Of a stretch of DNA of 64,000 nucleotides, positions 1 through 42,288 are shown one piece after another; within the stretch, counting starts at the first letter, position 1, and each line of letters opens with the position of its first letter. The notes under the pieces were generated by a model, which saw only the letters and a program-made list of their open reading frames with translations, made no database searches and was not told where the DNA came from. Position numbers and translations under genes: made by a program. The stretch comes from Orenia metallireducens (GTDB lineage: Bacteria > Bacillota > Halanaerobiia > Halobacteroidales > Halobacteroidaceae): contig NZ_PVNB01000018.1 in NCBI RefSeq assembly GCF_003001995.1, positions 1 through 64,000 of the forward strand, read 5' to 3'.

Positions 1-94
1 TGGAATGGAGCAACAATAAAGGAAAGCTGTATACGGGAAAACCGTACGTGCAGTTTGAAGAGAGGTCCCAGCTGTGAGGCTGGTCCTACTCTAT
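1..94 (+). mobile_element. Group II intron 3' end (domains V and VI)
   Basis: Positions 23-56 form a 34-nt hairpin typical of group II intron domain V: the arms AAAGCUG and CAGUUU pair, an AGC triad lies near the base, and the tip is a GAAA tetraloop closed by CGG/CCG. Positions 61-92 form a domain VI-like hairpin with CAGC (69-72) pairing GCUG (79-82) and AGAG pairing CUCU, followed by the terminal CUAU, so the intron should end near 94. The rest of the intron, including any reverse transcriptase gene, lies before the window. The 3' boundary is inferred from the structure. Confidence 0.82.
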
Positions 95-450
95 TATTGA
101 AATTATATTTTGAAAATCGTAGGTAGAGAGAAAAAATTAAACTGACATATTATATTAACCAGAAGAGTTTGCAGATGAAATAGTGTATTTATAAAGATGG
201 TATAACGAGAAGTTAAGAATGACTGCAACATAACTGTAATTTTTAATAAGATTTAATATCGCGAGGTTAGCTATATACTATTATAAGTTGCTAAGATTAA
301 AGATTTTTTTATTTTAGATTACATATATATTTAAGGGGTGAGGCTACTTTTACTCTATTTTTCAAATAAAGAAGGTAAACCTCTTTATTTTGTAGAATAT
401 GTTAAGATGTGGCAATTATCTGTGATATCTATTATCTGGAGGGATTTTAT
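95..450. other. Intergenic, no gene seen
   Basis: AT-rich sequence between the intron end and the esterase gene. It contains no open frame with a ribosome-binding site. A short imperfect inverted repeat (AATAAAGAAGG / CCTCTTTATT) at about 366-392 could be a terminator or leader hairpin. Confidence 0.5.
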
Positions 451-1182
451 ATGGGAGTCAATAAATTTACTAACCTTGAATATTGTAATGTTAATGGAAG
501 GTCTTTAGTGTTAGATATCTATGTACCTCAGTTAGCTGGTGAGAAGCCTCCTTTAGTAATTTATCTCCATGGAGGAGAGTGGGAAATAGGTAGCAATAAT
601 GGTTATGAAGAGGTTTATAGTGTGTCTAGACCACTGATTGAGAATGGATATGCTGTTGCAATAATAGACTATCGATTATATAATGAAGCAGAGTTCCCAG
701 CTCAGATTGAAGACTGTAAAGCTGCTGTTAGGTGGCTTAGGGCTAATGGAGACAATTATGGTTTTAATCCTGAGAAAATTGGAGTTTGGGGACGTTCAAT
801 TGGGGGGCATTTGGCATCTTTATTAGGCACAGCAGGGGATTTTAGAGGTTTTGATGTAGGTGAGTATCTAGAATATTCAAGCAAGGTACAGGCAGTCTGT
901 GATTTTTATGGAATGAGAGATTTATTAGAGATAACAGAGGCGAATCCAATTAATTATATAAGCCTAGAAGTACCTCCTTTTTTGATGGTTCATGGAGAGG
1001 CAGATATTGAGGTTCCTCTTTTGCAAAGTGAATTATTATATAATGCTTTAAAGAAATTTACTAATCAAGTGGAGCTATATATCTTAGAAGGAGAAGGTCA
1101 TGGCTTTGATATCATTAATCAAGAATTTCATCAGGATGTGTATAAACAGGTAATAGACTTTTTTAATAATTATTTAAGATGA
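451..1182 (+). CDS. Alpha/beta-hydrolase esterase/lipase
   Basis: A 243-residue single-domain alpha/beta hydrolase of the BD-FAE/acetyl-esterase type, probably a cytoplasmic carboxylesterase; no signal peptide is seen. The oxyanion-hole HGG is at residues 40-42, the nucleophile elbow GRSIGG at 114-119 (Ser116), the acid probably Asp185 in HGEADIEVP, and the catalytic His217 in GEGHGF. The frame is open from 409, but the ATG at 451 follows GGAGGG (438-443) at ideal spacing and gives a normal N-terminus, so it is preferred. A small membrane-protein gene follows 25 bp downstream. The substrate cannot be read from the sequence. Confidence 0.85.
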   Translation: MGVNKFTNLEYCNVNGRSLVLDIYVPQLAGEKPPLVIYLHGGEWEIGSNNGYEEVYSVSRPLIENGYAVAIIDYRLYNEAEFPAQIEDCKAAVRWLRANGDNYGFNPEKIGVWGRSIGGHLASLLGTAGDFRGFDVGEYLEYSSKVQAVCDFYGMRDLLEITEANPINYISLEVPPFLMVHGEADIEVPLLQSELLYNALKKFTNQVELYILEGEGHGFDIINQEFHQDVYKQVIDFFNNYLR

Positions 1183-12588: not shown

Positions 12589-12719
12589 TATATAGAGATA
12601 TTACGACACTTTTTATTAGCTCCTAGCCACTGGCTACTAGCTAAGAACTTATAGTTCTAATAGCCAGAAGATAGAGGCTAGAAGCTAGTAGCGAAAATGT
12701 CGCAATATTTCCATTAACC
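12589..12719. repeat. Short TIR element between spoIIIAF and spoIIIAG
   Basis: The left end AGATATTACGACACTTTT (12595 on) is the inverted complement of the right end AAAATGTCGCAATATT (to about 12710) and continues to CCATTAACC. Between them is a tract of CTAGCCACTGGCTACTAGC words and their complements. The rest of the gap to 12779 is a short AT-rich leader with AGAGAGGAGG as ribosome-binding site. Confidence 0.75.
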
Positions 12720-12779
12720 AACTAATATTCATATAAAAATTGTAAAATAGATTAAATCATATAAGAGAGGAGGACTTAT

Positions 12780-34486: not shown

Positions 34487-35194
34487 GTGATTAGAAGAAG
34501 ATTAGTGTTGATAGTCTGTTTATTATCTATATTGATTTTAAGTGGCTGTGAAGAGATTTTAGATGACCAAAAATTTGTTGGAAAGAAGCTGGGAGTAGTT
34601 ATAGAGATTGAAAATAAAGAAGATTTACATTTTGGAGCACGAAGAAATGATAATTTACATAATGAGATGGATATTAGAGATATTTATCTTGATAAAGAAG
34701 AAGTTATTATATTAAATAATGAATTAATCGAATACATAAAGAGTCATACGCCAATGGAAACAGTAAAAGTAAGCAAGGATTTATTAGAAGCTAATAAAGT
34801 TGCTAATAAAATTTCAAACTTTGATTATTTATTACATATTAATATATCAGATATAAAGTTTTATTATGAAAGTCAACTAACTGAGCAAATAAGTCATTCA
34901 GATACTGATTCCCTCACTGTATCAACTGATTTTGAGGATGAAGAAGGTAATGAGATAGAGTATTCTTATCGGAATAATCTTTTTTATGAATTAATTGATA
35001 GTGCAACAGGTGAAGTAATCATATCTGGAGTAAAAAGTGGACATTATAAAAATGAATATCTTTTGACAGACAGCGATTTTGACCTTGAAGGTTTTGAATA
35101 TGAGCTAGATTATTCTGATTTTAAAGATTTTAGAGTTAAAGATATTAAATATAGTATTATTGATTCTTTGTTAAAAACAGATTTATATAAATAA
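34487..35194 (+). CDS. Putative lipoprotein, unknown function
   Basis: A 235-residue protein with a type II signal: RRR, a hydrophobic core, and the lipobox LSGC, so Cys21 should be lipidated. The mature part is acidic and soluble, with no family I recognise. GTG start behind AAAGGAGGC. Flanked by a word tract and a terminator, so it is a single-gene unit. It shows no link to the sugar pathway before it. Confidence 0.75.
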   Translation: MIRRRLVLIVCLLSILILSGCEEILDDQKFVGKKLGVVIEIENKEDLHFGARRNDNLHNEMDIRDIYLDKEEVIILNNELIEYIKSHTPMETVKVSKDLLEANKVANKISNFDYLLHINISDIKFYYESQLTEQISHSDTDSLTVSTDFEDEEGNEIEYSYRNNLFYELIDSATGEVIISGVKSGHYKNEYLLTDSDFDLEGFEYELDYSDFKDFRVKDIKYSIIDSLLKTDLYK

Positions 35195-35298: not shown

Positions 35299-35460
35299 AG
35301 TTAATGGATATATTGCGACAGCTTAGCTACTAGCTTCTGGCCTCTCCTACGGGTTTGAAAATCATAAACCCTCCGTGATAAATCTGCTATTAGCTAAGAA
35401 CTTATAAAGCTAGAGGCTAGTAGCCAGTAGCTAGTGGCTATTAAAAAGTGTCGCTTTTTC
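35299..35460. repeat. Short TIR element with CTAGTAGCTAG interior
   Basis: Left end TTAATGGATATATTGCGACA, right end AAAAAGTGTCGC. The interior has CTTAGCTACTAGCTTCTGGC and the complementary GCTAGAGGCTAGTAGCCAG, plus a short insert (ACGGGTTTGAAAATC...). Same type as 12589-12719. Confidence 0.7.
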
Positions 35461-35513
35461 TTTCTAAAATGACAGTTATTATATCAGTATATTTAGTTGA
35501 AAGGAGGTAAATT

Positions 35514-38500
35514 ATGAATTACTTAGCTATGATTTTTAAGTTATTAGGTGGAGGTGTAACAGGATATATTACCAATGATCTTGCAATCAAGATGTTATTT
35601 AGGAAGTATGGACCCTTTGGTGGGGTGATTTTGGAGACCAAGGATGAGTTCATTGAGAATATAAGCCAGTTGGTAGAACGGGATATCATCAATTATCAGA
35701 CCATTGAGCAGGAGCTATCTAAGAAGGAGTTTAAGCAAGCTTTTCAAGCTACAGTCTCTGATCTCTTAGAAAGATATTTATACCAGAATACTGAGAATAT
35801 ACAGTGGTCAAAGATACCTAAATTAGATGAATCATTGGAAAATATCAGCAACTTTTATGATCAGAAGAGGTCAGGCTTCATAACGGAGTTTTTAGATATT
35901 TTGGCTGAGAATATCTTAGTAGAGGAGTTACTAAGTGTTGAGCAACTAGAGCAGTTGCTCAACTTAAGCTTTGATCTTTTTACTAATACTCTAGCTGAAA
36001 GTAAAGTAGTTGATAATTTGCTTGATGATATCTACAATACTAACTCTACAGAAGAGTTAGTAGAGTTTATTCCAGCAACTATTTTCAAGACCCTTGCCAT
36101 TAATTTAGAGGATAGTACTAGAGGCTTTCATGTTAGGCTTAAAGATAAATTTGAAGCTAGTATCGATGAGAATATAGAAAAATTATATTCAGAGTTGAGT
36201 ATCTCTGATATCTTGGCTGAGATAGAGGAGAAGGTTAAAGCTAAGTCTCTGGCTGAAATCTTAGGAGAGAAGCAAGTAGATGATATAAGTAATCAACTTC
36301 TCTTAAGGGTAATTGAATTCTTCAAATCAGCAGAAGGTAAGAGGTTAATCTATAATTTTCTAGAAGGAGCTCTAGAATTATTAAAGCAGATTGATCTTCC
36401 TATCTTGAGCCTGTTAAGTGAAGATATTAAAGAAAACTTAGAGAAGTTTATGTACAAGCAGTTACCCTATTTGGTGGAAGAAGGTGTAAGGTGGATTAGG
36501 GCGAATCAACAGGAGATTGAAGAGTTGATTGAAGAGAGTATTGATGAGGTTTTGGAGAAGGGGTCAGGGGTTAAGAATTGGATTAAAGGTCAGATAAAAG
36601 AAAGTTTAGGTAATATCGCTAGAAGGTTTCAGCTGATTGATAAGCTATTATTGTCTTTAGAGGATGATTCTGATATTAAGACTCTAAGCCGAGAATTGAG
36701 CCATCAGATCATAAATTATATCAAGGATAATAGTATCAAGGATATTATTGATTATCTAGAGAGTAGGGATTTAATCAGGATACAGAACCTTGTCAAGTTG
36801 ATTGACAGGAATATCGATAGATATTTAGATGGGATTGATTTGAGTGGCTTTGATAGGTTATTTGAGATTAGCTTAGGTGAGATTATAAATATAAATCTGG
36901 CTCAATACTTTGATGATAATATTAAAGACAATTTAATTGAGAAATTTAAAGAAGATTTTCTCTTTACACCTCAATTAACAGAGATATTGCAAAGAGAGTT
37001 ATTTCAGCAGATAATCAAGGTTGCTCAATTAAAGTTAGCAGAGCTTATTGATGAAGAGAGCTTGGAAGCTAGCTTACCTTTAATTAAAGGTAAAATCATA
37101 GGTTATTTACGAGAGAATCATGAGATTATTATAACTAAAGTGAGAGAAGAAGTTGAAGCATTTGTTAAGGGGAAGAGTTTCTCTGAGCTATTTACAGATA
37201 AATTGAAGGAGGAGTTAGTTAATAATCTTGGAGACAAATCTAGTAACTATTTAAAAGAATCTCTTTCAGGCTTACAAGAGCAGAGAATAACTGAACTATA
37301 TGATAGATTAAATCAGCAGGAGGATGTAGTGCAAAGGATAACTGCTTTGATATTGGAGTTAGTAAATAAGAATCTACCTCTTATGCTAGAAGGGAAGGTC
37401 AAAGGTGCAGTAGCCGATAATTTGTATAAATTAGAAGATAAGCAGGTACAAGATGTAGTTGAGGGCTTTATGGGCAAAGAGTTGAAGCCGATTACTCAAC
37501 TAGGGGCATTGTTGGGGATCATAGCAGCATTAATTTTATATTTAATTCAGGGGAGTATCAATCTATCACAGTTAGGCTGGCTTAATTTTATCTTATCTAC
37601 CTTTACATATGGTTTTGTCGGTTATTTTACCAATGTACTTGCTCTTAGAATGATCTTCCGTCCTTATAGTGAGAAGAAATTATTAGGGCAGAGAGTTCCT
37701 TTTACTCCAGGAGTAGTTGCTAAGAATAAACCTAGGTTTGCTGATTCTATGGGTAAATTTGTAGATGAACAGTTATTGAATGGGGAATCAATCAATAAGT
37801 TATTTAAAGATAATAGAGTGAAGATAGAAGATGATTTGAAAAGCCTGTTTGCTAAAGATAATTATCTGATTCTTAATAAATTGTTAGTCAAGAACAGGGG
37901 CTTGATATCGGAAAAAGTTTTTATATCTTTGTTAAACGTACTCAAATTTAATGGCGATGATTTAGTTAATAAATTATTGAATCAATTAAAAGAGATAGAT
38001 ATATTAGAGGTTGATCTTTCATTATTAGAAGCTAAACTAGCTTCAAAGCTAGAAACAATATTACTAGAGTCAGAAGATATTTTAACAGAAAGACTATTTC
38101 AATTTATAAATAACAAGAATTCTCTAAAGGAATTCCTACCAGAGTCTTTAAAAGTGAGAATAATAGAGCTGTTAAAGGAAGTAGTAGATAATGAGCTAAC
38201 AGAATTAGTAGCTTTAATAGATAATCCTGATAAAATTCAGCAGCTATTGACAGAATACTCACCAAAATTTGATGAATTAATTGAAGAGAAGCTGATGGAG
38301 TTAATCCCTTCTTCCCATCAGAAAGCATTGAAGGATTTTATAGTTGAGTATTCTCTTGAAAAGTTTAAGTCAACTGAAATCCGTCAGCAATCAGCCTCTT
38401 TAATTGAAAATAATATCTTTAAAAAAATAAATCCTGAGGATAGGATAAAAGATTTATTCAATGGTAAGTTAATGAATCCATTATATGATAATATGGACTT

Positions 38501-39677
38501 TATAATCAATAATTTCTTCAATAAAGGGATTCGTTATCTACAGTATCAGAAGAGATTTATCAAAGATATGGCTTTAGAGGTAGTTGAAGAGGAGTTTGCT
38601 AGAGAACAGATAAGTGGAATCGGTGGTTTAATTACAGGTTATTTTAAAAGAGGGGTATATAATCTAACAGATACAGCAGAGACTATCGAGAGTATTATCG
38701 ATAATCTAATAGATGAAAAGCTACCTGAGTTTATAAAGCTGAAAGAACAGGAGATAGTCAAGCTAGTAAATAGATTTTTAGATAAAGTGGGAGATAGAAG
38801 GCTTAAGGAGATTGGGATTGATTTAGATAGTGCTGCCTTAATGAGTTTGGTGGACAAGCTCTTAGCTAATGAAAATTTGGTCAATAGCTTATCGGTTTTA
38901 GTAGCTAGAGTAGTTGACTCAATTTTAGAATTAAAGTTAAAATCAGTCTCAAGGATAATGGCTATCGATGATATTTCGGATATGCTAGAGTTTTTTACAG
39001 ATGAGATTGATGTATTTAGCAACTCTTTGAGTAGTAATCTTAGGAATAAAGAAGGGGTAATTAAAGAAAATTTATTAGTTTTGTTCAGTGAGATATTGGA
39101 TAGACTGATTTTATCATTACCACTTAATCAGCTTGCTGTTAATATCAGTAGAGGTGAGTTGAAGAAAGTAGTCAATAAAATTATTGAGACTATCCATAGT
39201 ACTCCTACTTTTGAAGAAAATTTGAGTATCTTTATGAAGGATATAATTGCTAAATTAGCAGAGAAGAATATCGATAAAATTCTAAATTTTGATTATTTAG
39301 CTGCTGATATTAAGAAGCTTCTAGCTAGAATGATAGATGATGGAGAACTAAGATATCAACTATTAATCTTTATCAAGAAAGTTATAGAGGAGATATTAGC
39401 AGAGTTAAATAGCATGCTTGAATCAGATACTAAGGGATTCTGCTTTGAGATTATCTTAGCTAGTAGCTTAGATTCATTAGAGAGCCATTTTTTAGAGTTG
39501 CTAACTGCTTTAAATATCAAAGAGGTAACGGAATTAGAAGTCAATCAGATGAGCTCTCAGGATATCGAGGATCTCTTCAACTCCTTTGCAGGAAGATACT
39601 TTAGAAGATTAGAGGCTTATGGGTGGATGGGAAGTGTAGTTGGGGTATTTACAGAACTGCTTTCTATTATATTGTAA
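35514..39677 (+). CDS. Giant protein with two DUF445 units
   Basis: A 1387-residue protein, about three times the usual DUF445 length. The family's membrane motif appears twice: GGGVTGYITNDLAIKMLF at residues 12-29, and a longer version starting near residue 664 (GALLGIIAALILYLIQG, then TYGFVGYFTNVLALRMIFRP and the hallmark PFTPGVVAKNKPRFADSMG). Between and after these are long amphipathic helical segments rich in Leu, Ile, Glu and Lys. A last hydrophobic stretch (WMGSVVGVFTELLSIIL) ends the protein. Probably a membrane-anchored elongated envelope protein; function unknown. Start after AAAGGAGG. Confidence 0.85.
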   Translation: MNYLAMIFKLLGGGVTGYITNDLAIKMLFRKYGPFGGVILETKDEFIENISQLVERDIINYQTIEQELSKKEFKQAFQATVSDLLERYLYQNTENIQWSKIPKLDESLENISNFYDQKRSGFITEFLDILAENILVEELLSVEQLEQLLNLSFDLFTNTLAESKVVDNLLDDIYNTNSTEELVEFIPATIFKTLAINLEDSTRGFHVRLKDKFEASIDENIEKLYSELSISDILAEIEEKVKAKSLAEILGEKQVDDISNQLLLRVIEFFKSAEGKRLIYNFLEGALELLKQIDLPILSLLSEDIKENLEKFMYKQLPYLVEEGVRWIRANQQEIEELIEESIDEVLEKGSGVKNWIKGQIKESLGNIARRFQLIDKLLLSLEDDSDIKTLSRELSHQIINYIKDNSIKDIIDYLESRDLIRIQNLVKLIDRNIDRYLDGIDLSGFDRLFEISLGEIININLAQYFDDNIKDNLIEKFKEDFLFTPQLTEILQRELFQQIIKVAQLKLAELIDEESLEASLPLIKGKIIGYLRENHEIIITKVREEVEAFVKGKSFSELFTDKLKEELVNNLGDKSSNYLKESLSGLQEQRITELYDRLNQQEDVVQRITALILELVNKNLPLMLEGKVKGAVADNLYKLEDKQVQDVVEGFMGKELKPITQLGALLGIIAALILYLIQGSINLSQLGWLNFILSTFTYGFVGYFTNVLALRMIFRPYSEKKLLGQRVPFTPGVVAKNKPRFADSMGKFVDEQLLNGESINKLFKDNRVKIEDDLKSLFAKDNYLILNKLLVKNRGLISEKVFISLLNVLKFNGDDLVNKLLNQLKEIDILEVDLSLLEAKLASKLETILLESEDILTERLFQFINNKNSLKEFLPESLKVRIIELLKEVVDNELTELVALIDNPDKIQQLLTEYSPKFDELIEEKLMELIPSSHQKALKDFIVEYSLEKFKSTEIRQQSASLIENNIFKKINPEDRIKDLFNGKLMNPLYDNMDFIINNFFNKGIRYLQYQKRFIKDMALEVVEEEFAREQISGIGGLITGYFKRGVYNLTDTAETIESIIDNLIDEKLPEFIKLKEQEIVKLVNRFLDKVGDRRLKEIGIDLDSAALMSLVDKLLANENLVNSLSVLVARVVDSILELKLKSVSRIMAIDDISDMLEFFTDEIDVFSNSLSSNLRNKEGVIKENLLVLFSEILDRLILSLPLNQLAVNISRGELKKVVNKIIETIHSTPTFEENLSIFMKDIIAKLAEKNIDKILNFDYLAADIKKLLARMIDDGELRYQLLIFIKKVIEEILAELNSMLESDTKGFCFEIILASSLDSLESHFLELLTALNIKEVTELEVNQMSSQDIEDLFNSFAGRYFRRLEAYGWMGSVVGVFTELLSIIL

Positions 39678-39964
39678 AAATTTACATTAAATTATTCATC
39701 TTATTATTATAAATCTCAATAAAGAAAAATCTCATTTAACCTTTTACTATGGTTATAATCTATGTTATAATTATCTCCGTGTCTATAAGCCTTGGGATGT
39801 GTTTCTTAATAAGCAGTGTAGTAAATTTTAGATAGTTAAAATTATAAGGTTATATATAAGGCGGTTTTTGTTTTAAGCTAACATCTTTATAAGAGACTAT
39901 ATAAAAGAAGTTTATATAAGAAGTTTATATAAGTTTATAAGAATATAAGGAGGAGATGTTTTTT
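39678..39964. other. Leader of the SulP gene with tandem repeat
   Basis: No gene. The 13-mer AAGTTTATATAAG is repeated perfectly in tandem (39908-39920, 39921-39933) with a partial third copy, just before the AAGGAGGAG ribosome-binding site. Further upstream only AT-rich sequence is seen. Confidence 0.55.
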
Positions 39965-41530
39965 ATGGTAAAAAGGATGAAAGAGAGCTTTAACCGACAG
40001 ATAGTTAAAGATGATGTTCTATCTGGATTGACAGTAGCTTTAGCGTTGATTCCAGAATCAGTGGCGTTTGCTTTTGTAGCAGGGGTGAGCCCAATTATCA
40101 GTCTGCAAACCGCTGTTATTATTGGTCTAATAGCAGCTACTTTTACAGGAAGACCTGGAATGATTAGTTCGTCTACAGCTGCACTTTCAGTTGTATTTGC
40201 TTCATTAATCTCTCAGCATGGCTTGGAGTATCTCTTTGCTACAGTAGTTCTAATGGGGATTATTCAGGTATTAATAGGGGTATTTAAGTTGGGTAAATAT
40301 GCCAGAATGATACCTTATCCAGTAATGCTTGGTTTTCTTAATGGGTTATCGATAGTGATGTTTTTGGCTCAGTGGGAGCAGTTTAAAGTAAAAAAGACAA
40401 TAATGGTAGATGGTGTTGAAATGATACATAAGGTTTGGTTACCTGCATCAGATATGACAATAATGTTTTTATTTGTAGTCTTTACTATGGCAATTATTCA
40501 TTTTGTTCCTAAATTGACTAAAGCAGTTCCAGCAAGTTTAGTGGCTATTGTAATAATGACAGTTATTGCAGTTCTTTTGGATAAAAATGGCTATCATCTA
40601 AGAAATGTACAAGACTTTGCTGGAATGGAGTTAAAAGGTGGCTTACCTAAGTTTCATATACCCCAAGTTAAAATAAATTTGGATATGTTAAAAATTATCT
40701 TTCCCTATGCGATAATTGGGGGACTTGCAGGATTGACAGAGGCAGTACTTACCCTTAGAGTAATTGATGAGATGACTGATACTAGAGGGCATACTAATAA
40801 AGAATGTATTGCACAGGGTCTAGCTAATACTGTTAATGGATTTTTTGGTGGAATGGGCGGAGATGCTATGATAGGTCAGTCTATTATTAACATTAAATCT
40901 GGTGGTAGAACAAGATTGTCAGGATTGGTAGCAGCATCAGGGCTAATGATGTTCATCATGTTTGGCTCAGGTTTTGTAAATGTTATTCCACTGGCAAGTT
41001 TAGTAGGGGTTATGTTTATGGTTGTAGTAGGAACCTTTAAGTGGGAAAGCTTAAAGTATGGTAAGAAGATACCTAAAGAAGATATTGTAGTGGTAGTAGC
41101 AGTTACTTTAATTACAGTATTGGTAGATTTAGCTACAGCTGTAATTATAGGGGTAATCCTATCAGCATTGATCTTTGCTTGGCAGAAAGGAAAAGCAATT
41201 CAGGTAAATAAAAGAAATAGTCACTGTGGTTCTAAAGTTTATGAGGTAGATGGACCATTATTCTTTGGCTCTGTATTAGAGTTTAGAGATTTATTCGATA
41301 TTAAGGGTGATCCTGAGAATATTATCATCGACTTTAAAAACTCTAAAGTAATGGATCACTCAGCTATCGAAGCTATTAACTCTATAACAGAAAAATACTT
41401 CAATGCAGGTAAGAAAATTATTTTGCGGCATCTTAGTAAAGACTGTCAAATGCTTTTAAAGAATGCCGAGAGTATTATCCAAGTTAATATAGAGGATCCT
41501 AATTATCATGTGGCTGATGATCTATTATAA
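39965..41530 (+). CDS. SulP-family anion transporter with STAS domain
   Basis: A 521-residue SulP/SLC26 protein: about 12-14 membrane helices beginning DDVLSGLTVALALIPESVAFA, the conserved GRPGMISSSTAALSVVF, and a C-terminal STAS domain (about residue 425 on: VYEVDGPLFFGSVLEF, DFKNSKVMDHSAIEAI). Substrate could be sulfate, bicarbonate or a dicarboxylate. ATG 39965 chosen, because the in-frame ATG at 39956 overlaps the ribosome-binding site. Confidence 0.92.
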   Translation: MVKRMKESFNRQIVKDDVLSGLTVALALIPESVAFAFVAGVSPIISLQTAVIIGLIAATFTGRPGMISSSTAALSVVFASLISQHGLEYLFATVVLMGIIQVLIGVFKLGKYARMIPYPVMLGFLNGLSIVMFLAQWEQFKVKKTIMVDGVEMIHKVWLPASDMTIMFLFVVFTMAIIHFVPKLTKAVPASLVAIVIMTVIAVLLDKNGYHLRNVQDFAGMELKGGLPKFHIPQVKINLDMLKIIFPYAIIGGLAGLTEAVLTLRVIDEMTDTRGHTNKECIAQGLANTVNGFFGGMGGDAMIGQSIINIKSGGRTRLSGLVAASGLMMFIMFGSGFVNVIPLASLVGVMFMVVVGTFKWESLKYGKKIPKEDIVVVVAVTLITVLVDLATAVIIGVILSALIFAWQKGKAIQVNKRNSHCGSKVYEVDGPLFFGSVLEFRDLFDIKGDPENIIIDFKNSKVMDHSAIEAINSITEKYFNAGKKIILRHLSKDCQMLLKNAESIIQVNIEDPNYHVADDLL

Positions 41531-42213: not shown

Positions 42214-42288
42214 AATTAAAGTTGGATGATCAGAGTGTTTTTATGTTATAATTGTTAATATATTAGAGAATAGGGAGTGAGTAGTAGA

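Follow-up and report, generated by a model that had tools for sequence, protein, structure and literature searches.

Proteins of the DUF445 family (PF04286), such as YjiN of Escherichia coli, ordinarily carry one copy of the domain, in open frames of about 198–536 codons. A literature search on DUF445, YjiN, YheB (the family member of Bacillus subtilis) and UPF0754/COG4399/COG2733 yielded, among the papers listed, neither work on the function of DUF445 nor a description of a tandem form. The E. coli gene appears in single table rows of two papers, as YjiN raised in a delta-spr strain (PMC7774453) and, in brackets, as yjiN among FliA sites (PMC4183435); PMC3355149 was rejected as a DUF445 source, because the hits seen in it were prefix matches to DUF4453/DUF4454. 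The window analysed here is a stretch of 64,000 nucleotides from Orenia metallireducens, class Halanaerobiia (assembly GCF_003001995.1, contig NZ_PVNB01000018.1, positions 1 to 64,000, forward strand). It encodes a giant protein with two DUF445 copies and 1387 residues (Table 1), which thus falls outside the usual single-copy form of the family (~200–540 residues).

Other described systems resemble this protein in shape or manner of working. The bacterial spectrin EzrA (PMC4243239) is a membrane-anchored cytoplasmic helical rod and serves as a works-like comparison only; it consists of five linear triple-helix repeats, whereas the window protein is predicted to fold as a hairpin and has a membrane helix at either end. 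No EzrA match was found in the window protein by Pfam at E 0.1. The arms of SMC, MukB and Rad50 and the hairpins of chemoreceptors share its predicted antiparallel helical hairpin shape, and no ATPase head was found in it by Pfam. Our preferred reading, which we hold to be about as likely as not, is that the giant is a membrane-anchored cytoplasmic twin spacer whose two tips bind a partner at a distance of up to ~40 nm from the membrane.

Two DUF445 copies in one protein

The open reading frame (ORF) is preceded by GAAAGGAGG and has no internal stops. DUF445 is the sole Pfam family matched by its product, over four stretches and at E 3.8e-50 (172.3 bits, where the curated cut-off is 33.8), and searches against NCBIfam and the sequences of solved structures gave no match. 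Hidden Markov models (HMMs) were built from the opening and closing ends of 47 single-copy DUF445 proteins. These end HMMs found opening segments at residues 1–80 (N1; 42.3 bits) and 685–765 (N2; 72.4 bits) and closing segments at 622–684 (C1; 23.9 bits) and 1325–1387 (C2; 19.5 bits), and scored −1.6 to 2.9 when applied to the wrong kind of segment. Both copies match the GY.TN..A..M opening motif and the closing membrane segment of the family. Furthermore, profile comparison of half 1 (1–686) with half 2 (687–1387) gave a probability of 99.6 and E 3.3e-24 over 626 columns. The protein is therefore two full DUF445 copies, homologous end to end.

The first-pass annotation of this DNA had claimed two copies, and is borne out; the possibility of two unrelated domains, which it had raised, is contradicted by the homology of the halves. 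Its placing of the second copy at about 664–720 needs correction, since that range holds the C1 closing helix (~660–680) and then the N2 opening helix (~690–715), and its figure of about 400 residues for ordinary members is a rough one given the range of single-copy frames found here.

The ortholog in a congener, genome G007, also has 1387 residues and aligns without gaps over all 1387 codons at 77% identity. Nonsynonymous divergence (dN) is 0.122 and synonymous divergence (dS) 0.581, a dN/dS of ~0.21, and the gene is under purifying selection.

Table 1. Features of the tandem DUF445 locus, in coordinates of the window.
Feature	Position	Strand	Description	Basis
Tandem DUF445 gene	35514..39677	+	1387 aa	Intact ORF, Pfam DUF445, dN/dS against congener
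N1	35514..35612	+	Membrane helix that opens copy 1, with its base motif in derived form; residues 1–33, conserved base to ~110	
Arm 1	35814..37373	+	Predicted helical hairpin shaft, residues ~101–620, mostly low conservation	AlphaFold2 model, conservation profile
Tip of arm 1	36534..36623	+	Residues ~341–370, conserved island at the turn of the model	AlphaFold2 model, conservation
C1	37374..37559	+	Membrane segment that closes copy 1, with ELKPI..LGALLG motif in canonical form; residues 621–682	
N2	37575..37811	+	Membrane helix that opens copy 2, with its base motif in canonical form; residues ~688–766, GYFTN...RPY...PFTPG	
Arm 2	37812..39470	+	Residues ~767–1319, mostly low conservation	Half comparison, conservation; compact homolog modelled
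Putative tip of arm 2	38634..38738	+	Residues ~1041–1075, conserved island, arm midpoint	Conservation
C2	39471..39674	+	Membrane segment that closes copy 2, with SFAG.YF..L..YGW.G motif in derived form; residues ~1320–1387	
Terminal inverted repeat (TIR) element	35301..35470	.	Dispersed repeat, resembling a miniature inverted-repeat transposable element, outside gene	Genome copies, absence in G007

Origin of the tandem

A tree was made of 127 opening segments, comprising 40 N1, 40 N2 and 47 single-copy sequences. Each of the three groups lies on one side of one branch, and N1 and N2 are joined at 98/88. The 40 tandems, compact forms included, fit a single duplication; the tree rests on 92 columns and drew a tool warning of long branches meeting, so we regard this as a good fit rather than proof.

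N2 and C1 stand near the single-copy family and N1 and C2 are derived. N2 scores above N1 in all 25 giants of one alignment and in 28 of the 29 rows of another; for C1 over C2 the corresponding counts are 22 of 25 and 26 of 29. This arrangement of canonical inner and derived outer segments prompted the idea of an interlocked pairing (N1 with C2, C1 with N2), which was rejected: the structural model of half 1 did not support it, and in that model arm 1 doubles back so that its two ends lie together at the base.

Arm length and conservation

The arms of the window protein measure 666 and 663 residues from motif to motif, and those of the giants generally 560–680 each. Compact tandems, which by the tree share the duplication and have the same order of elements, differ in that their arms reach only about half this length. 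Half 1 of the compact form aligns to residues 4–257 and 541–673 of the window protein (compact 237–263 being matched twice), which places the giants' ~280 extra residues at the arm 1 tip; in arm 2, where the returning part alone aligned well, the extra length could not be placed. The lengths of the two arms are matched, with r 0.95 over 27 distinct pairs and 0.64 over 24 giant pairs, both uncorrected for kinship. These values come from 52 of 53 rows, L116 having been dropped for a missing second motif and the end of L110 having been guessed.

Weighted conservation over 25 giants is 2–3.5 bits in most blocks at the membrane ends and 0.65–1.5 in the shafts, rising again in mid-arm to 1.8 bits at 341–360 and 1.86 bits at 1041–1060. 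Within 100–614 and 791–1320 the five highest smoothed peaks are at 105, 1054, 357, 1320 and 615; since 105, 1320 and 615 flank the bases, 1054 and 357 are the two highest interior peaks. The same islands (1068, 334, 360, 1042) recur in another set of 22 giants, which overlaps the first. Such a pattern, with conservation at the feet and tips and freedom in the shafts between them, would be expected of a spacer with binding ends.

These data also bear on the simplest alternative, a fused duplicate without any special role, whose arms drift in length so that its size means nothing. The poor conservation of the arm sequences would suit it, as would the absence of the gene from one congener (G006). 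However, the low dN/dS and lack of gaps, the matched arm lengths with their conserved middles, and the presence of the giant in many families of the class all argue the other way, and we consider this explanation very unlikely.

Predicted fold of the arms

AlphaFold2 was run on window residues 1–689 (copy 1) and on the compact tandem L133. The copy 1 model has a mean pLDDT of 79.4 (72.0–79.4 over five models) and is helical apart from isolated bridge residues, with pLDDT below 50 at 350–354, 360–366 and 685–689. The L133 model (pLDDT 81.9, pTM 0.61) places helices at four membrane positions (2–34, 338–375, 388–411 and 703–749) and is weak at 213–220 and 561–563.

Ten isolated bridge residues in the copy 1 model, paired by the analyst in nested fashion, give sums of 688–703, and their evenness was matched by 128 of 100000 random placements; they can be read as a ladder folding about residue 345–350. 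A simple bridge pattern is enriched in the window protein, with nine hits against a mean of 2.5 and as many in 2 of 2000 shuffles. In a structural second look (VIA), the first and last aligned residues sum to 670–715 in 44 of 50 rows, centred near residue 345 (for example 185..507, 141..546 and 139..552), and the other six depart from this; one match, to a membrane protein, covers 1..688. Antiparallel coiled-coil hairpins (Smc5/6, chemoreceptor) head the list, with a best Z of 6.3, which is not significant. Foldseek gave no match to the models at E 0.001 or better; its best E of 0.065 is, like the VIA score, below the level of kinship for long helices such as SMC-type arms. The VIA lists consist of generic helical rows, and absence from them proves nothing. 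Profile comparison found the outgoing and returning parts of arm 1 similar (probability 91), and those of arm 2 dissimilar (probability 14).

Together, these models suggest that copy 1 is a helical hairpin whose two membrane helices meet at the base and whose tip is near residue 350, a fold predicted for copy 1 of the window protein and for the compact homolog. Judged by helix rise, the returning strand, the shorter of the two, could extend 41 nm at most, and kinks reduce this.

Membrane topology

Lysine and arginine (K/R) were counted in 38 of the 40 tandems, two having been dropped for a missing motif. They number 11 among the 641 residues of the loop between C1 and N2, or 0.017 per residue; the corresponding values are 0.05 for the N-terminus and 0.14–0.20 for the arm-side flanks. 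By the positive-inside rule, this pattern predicts that the arms lie in the cytoplasm.

The opposite orientation would have the rods face outward and bridge the envelope, between inner and outer membrane or between membrane and wall, as structural linkers or lipid conduits. A length of up to ~40 nm by residue count could span the envelope, many carriers of the giant in the class are presumably diderm, and the K/R-rich end of the protein (0.231 per residue) misfits a simple cytoplasmic topology. Against this, the charges around the other membrane segments place the arms inside, giants also occur in Peptoclostridium and Intestinibacter, which we assume to be monoderm, and no significant fold match of any kind was obtained. 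We think an envelope bridge unlikely.

The first-pass annotation had proposed a membrane-tethered rod, perhaps linking sites in the envelope or spore coats. The rod is supported, as a prediction from AlphaFold2, VIA and the bridge ladder, and the linking role is not: the charges point to a cytoplasmic position of the rods, and spore coats fail on the distribution described below.

Distribution

A sample of 59 genomes of the class was searched, with size classes assigned by hand from open frames. DUF445 was matched in 50, and 27 have a giant frame of 1233–1398 codons, the shortest of which (G022, 1233 codons) ends at a contig end. Fragments of a giant occur in four more (G035, G041, G044, G048), which were counted as carriers; in G041 the one match is under the Pfam cut-off and fragment status comes from a tblastn match. 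G045, with tandem fragments by tblastn and no Pfam match, was counted as lacking the giant. The giant is the only DUF445 form in 24 of the 27 genomes, is accompanied by a small form in two (the window genome and G007) and by a medium form in one (G057). The remaining class genomes with a match have small forms only (12 genomes; 198–231 codons), medium forms only (6; 489–509 codons) or one of each (1).

In Clostridia, 60 genomes of the family of Intestinibacter bartlettii were sampled, including the previously known giant carriers G061 and G062. Frames of 1019–1433 codons were found in 11, these two being the ones covered by the tandem alignment; 44 have the small form, one a cut fragment only, and four no match. 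A frame of more than 1000 codons and the small form never occur together in these 60 genomes, and the probability of such separation by chance is ~1e-8 under random placement with kinship ignored.

A search of named contigs with a single-protein query found nothing, and an alignment query gave matches. It added Peptoclostridium litorale, Intestinibacter, a Family XIII genome and many Halanaerobium, and a fragment in Sporomusaceae. Seven compact tandems of 747–761 aa came from metagenome genomes (L132–L138), four of them titled from goat or sheep gut. Searches of plasmids and of viral contigs for tandem DUF445 returned nothing. Among 14 control genomes, DUF445 was present in four (E. coli, B. 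subtilis, Synechococcus and Corynebacterium). The two-copy architecture is common to the tandem subfamily, which is described in none of the literature searched. The giant size had been flagged as unusual, subject to its being rare in the family; it is common in the class, as it is in some members of a single Clostridia family, and is thus a subfamily trait rather than an oddity.

The distribution also decides against a rod for sporulation or the spore coat. The window genome has spoIVA, and small DUF445 genes adjoin ytxC-type genes, both of which would suit such a role. However, among the 27 class genomes with spoIVA, 16 lack the giant (out of 28 without it), and 20 of the 31 carriers of the giant or its fragments lack spoIVA. 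All 12 Halanaerobium genomes of the class sample lack spoIVA, and 11 of them have a giant frame and the other (G035) fragments. A spore-coat role was rejected on these counts, and a sporulation rod of any kind seems to us scarcely credible.

A possible cytoplasmic spacer

In the twin spacer that we favour, each DUF445 copy would run from a membrane helix through an outgoing arm to a tip, and back through a returning arm to a second membrane helix. A short uncharged loop on the outer face would join the copies, and two equal rods would extend into the cytoplasm for at most ~40 nm. The conserved membrane base would act as the foot, and the variable shafts would set the distance. A conserved patch at each tip may bind a partner, and the protein would in this way tether a target to the membrane or fix its position with respect to it, perhaps as an elaborated version of the role of short DUF445 proteins. 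A more specific form, in which two equal-length hairpins act as a twin-rod ruler and hold the conserved tips tens of nanometres from the inner membrane face, seems possible but on balance doubtful. That both arm lengths would then change in step during evolution, and that the ruler would be a class of spacer new to the literature searched, is put forward just as tentatively.

Several observations count against a cytoplasmic spacer. The half 1 model has a pTM of just 0.36 and was built on alignments of 29 rows, and the shape was derived from secondary structure and alignment ranges. The bridge-site motif of half 1 was undetectable in half 2 (65 of 300 shuffles were as good), all nine hits of the simple pattern lie outside arm 2, and that pattern is weak in many orthologs. 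Three conservation peaks similar in height to those of the tips, at 105, 615 and 1320, were set aside as flanking the bases. The K/R-rich stretch after the last membrane segment misfits the simple topology, and the 47 single-copy proteins show a weaker K/R bias (outside 0.085 and 0.100, inside 0.189 and 0.145 per residue). Exclusivity of giant and smaller forms is not absolute, as the window genome, G007 and G057 show. G006, of the same genus, lacks the giant: its upstream regulator gene is directly followed by a folD-like gene (read from sequence; at 42277 in the window), so the giant is dispensable there and not essential in the genus. Finally, none of the giant's neighbours is common to different families.

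Genomic context

Some neighbours of the giant are shared within the Halanaerobium family (f7), within family f8, and between the window genome and G007. Contexts of the giants in Clostridia and of the compact forms differ again. In f7 (L075–L088), the giant lies near genes that read, from their sequence alone, as CorA-type and zinc ABC transport genes.

Single-copy loci are more regular. At nine of 46 single-copy loci, BLAST clusters show the DUF445 gene immediately preceded by a ytxC-type gene and immediately followed by one of thrS type (L092, L093, L094, L099, L100, L166, L169, L170 and L171). Mid-size forms adjoin Metallophos and AAA_27 genes at two of the six loci from the class; the same holds in six staphylococci, which have a YlbF-family gene alongside as well. 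We take the AAA_27 neighbour to be SbcC/YhaN-like and the pair to be SbcCD/YhaON-like. Pfam names of neighbours were checked on L092, L097, L142 and L169, the check on L169 covering YtxC. This context hints at nucleic-acid or translation housekeeping for the DUF445 family, and is only a lead.

It is the basis of a further alternative, in which single-copy DUF445 proteins cooperate at the membrane with proteins that process RNA or DNA, the giant being the same anchor with a longer reach. Both conserved neighbourhoods favour it. However, the giant itself stands in neither the ytxC/thrS nor the Metallophos/AAA_27 context, and such neighbours may be housekeeping islands without a functional link. 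We regard a housekeeping anchor as unlikely.

Individual loci illustrate these arrangements. In the window's own genome, a second DUF445 gene of 199 aa lies between a YtxC-family gene and thrS-infC (L092:7542-12572, contig C22). In a genome of Calditrichales (L172), only the ytxC-type neighbour is present. The Metallophos and AAA_27 arrangement beside a mid-size DUF445 gene is seen in Halanaerobiia and staphylococci at L097:8789-14919 and L142:5953-11894.

Directly upstream of the giant lies the TIR element, as had been noted from the sequence, and its inverted arms and dispersed copies confirm it. The arms are 16 nt long (35326–35341 and 35409–35424) and 88% complementary. At least 16 other copies of at least 120 bp occur in the genome at 88–99% identity, with 40 of 187 candidates scored, and a partial copy lies at ~12604–12722 of the window. 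The element is absent from the matching site of G007, and a terminator-like hairpin is present at both sites. It is an insertion unrelated to the giant, with no sign of a functional link.

Between the regulator gene and the giant, 34487–35194 holds a lipoprotein-like ORF of 235 aa with no Pfam match. It is absent from the matching site in G007 and is flanked on both sides by AGTATATT, which points to a lineage-specific insertion or a repeat-mediated loss. After the giant, 39956–41530 encodes a member of the sulfate permease family (PF00916), missing at the matching place in G007.

Significance for the DUF445 family

DUF445 proteins occur far apart in bacteria, and for the tandem subfamily the evidence points to cytoplasmic spacing rather than to an envelope or spore role. 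The subfamily separates the parts, with conserved feet, shafts of free length and conserved tips, and so offers a testable design for the whole DUF445 family. If true, the twin-rod ruler would be a class of cytoplasmic spacer protein not previously described in the literature searched.

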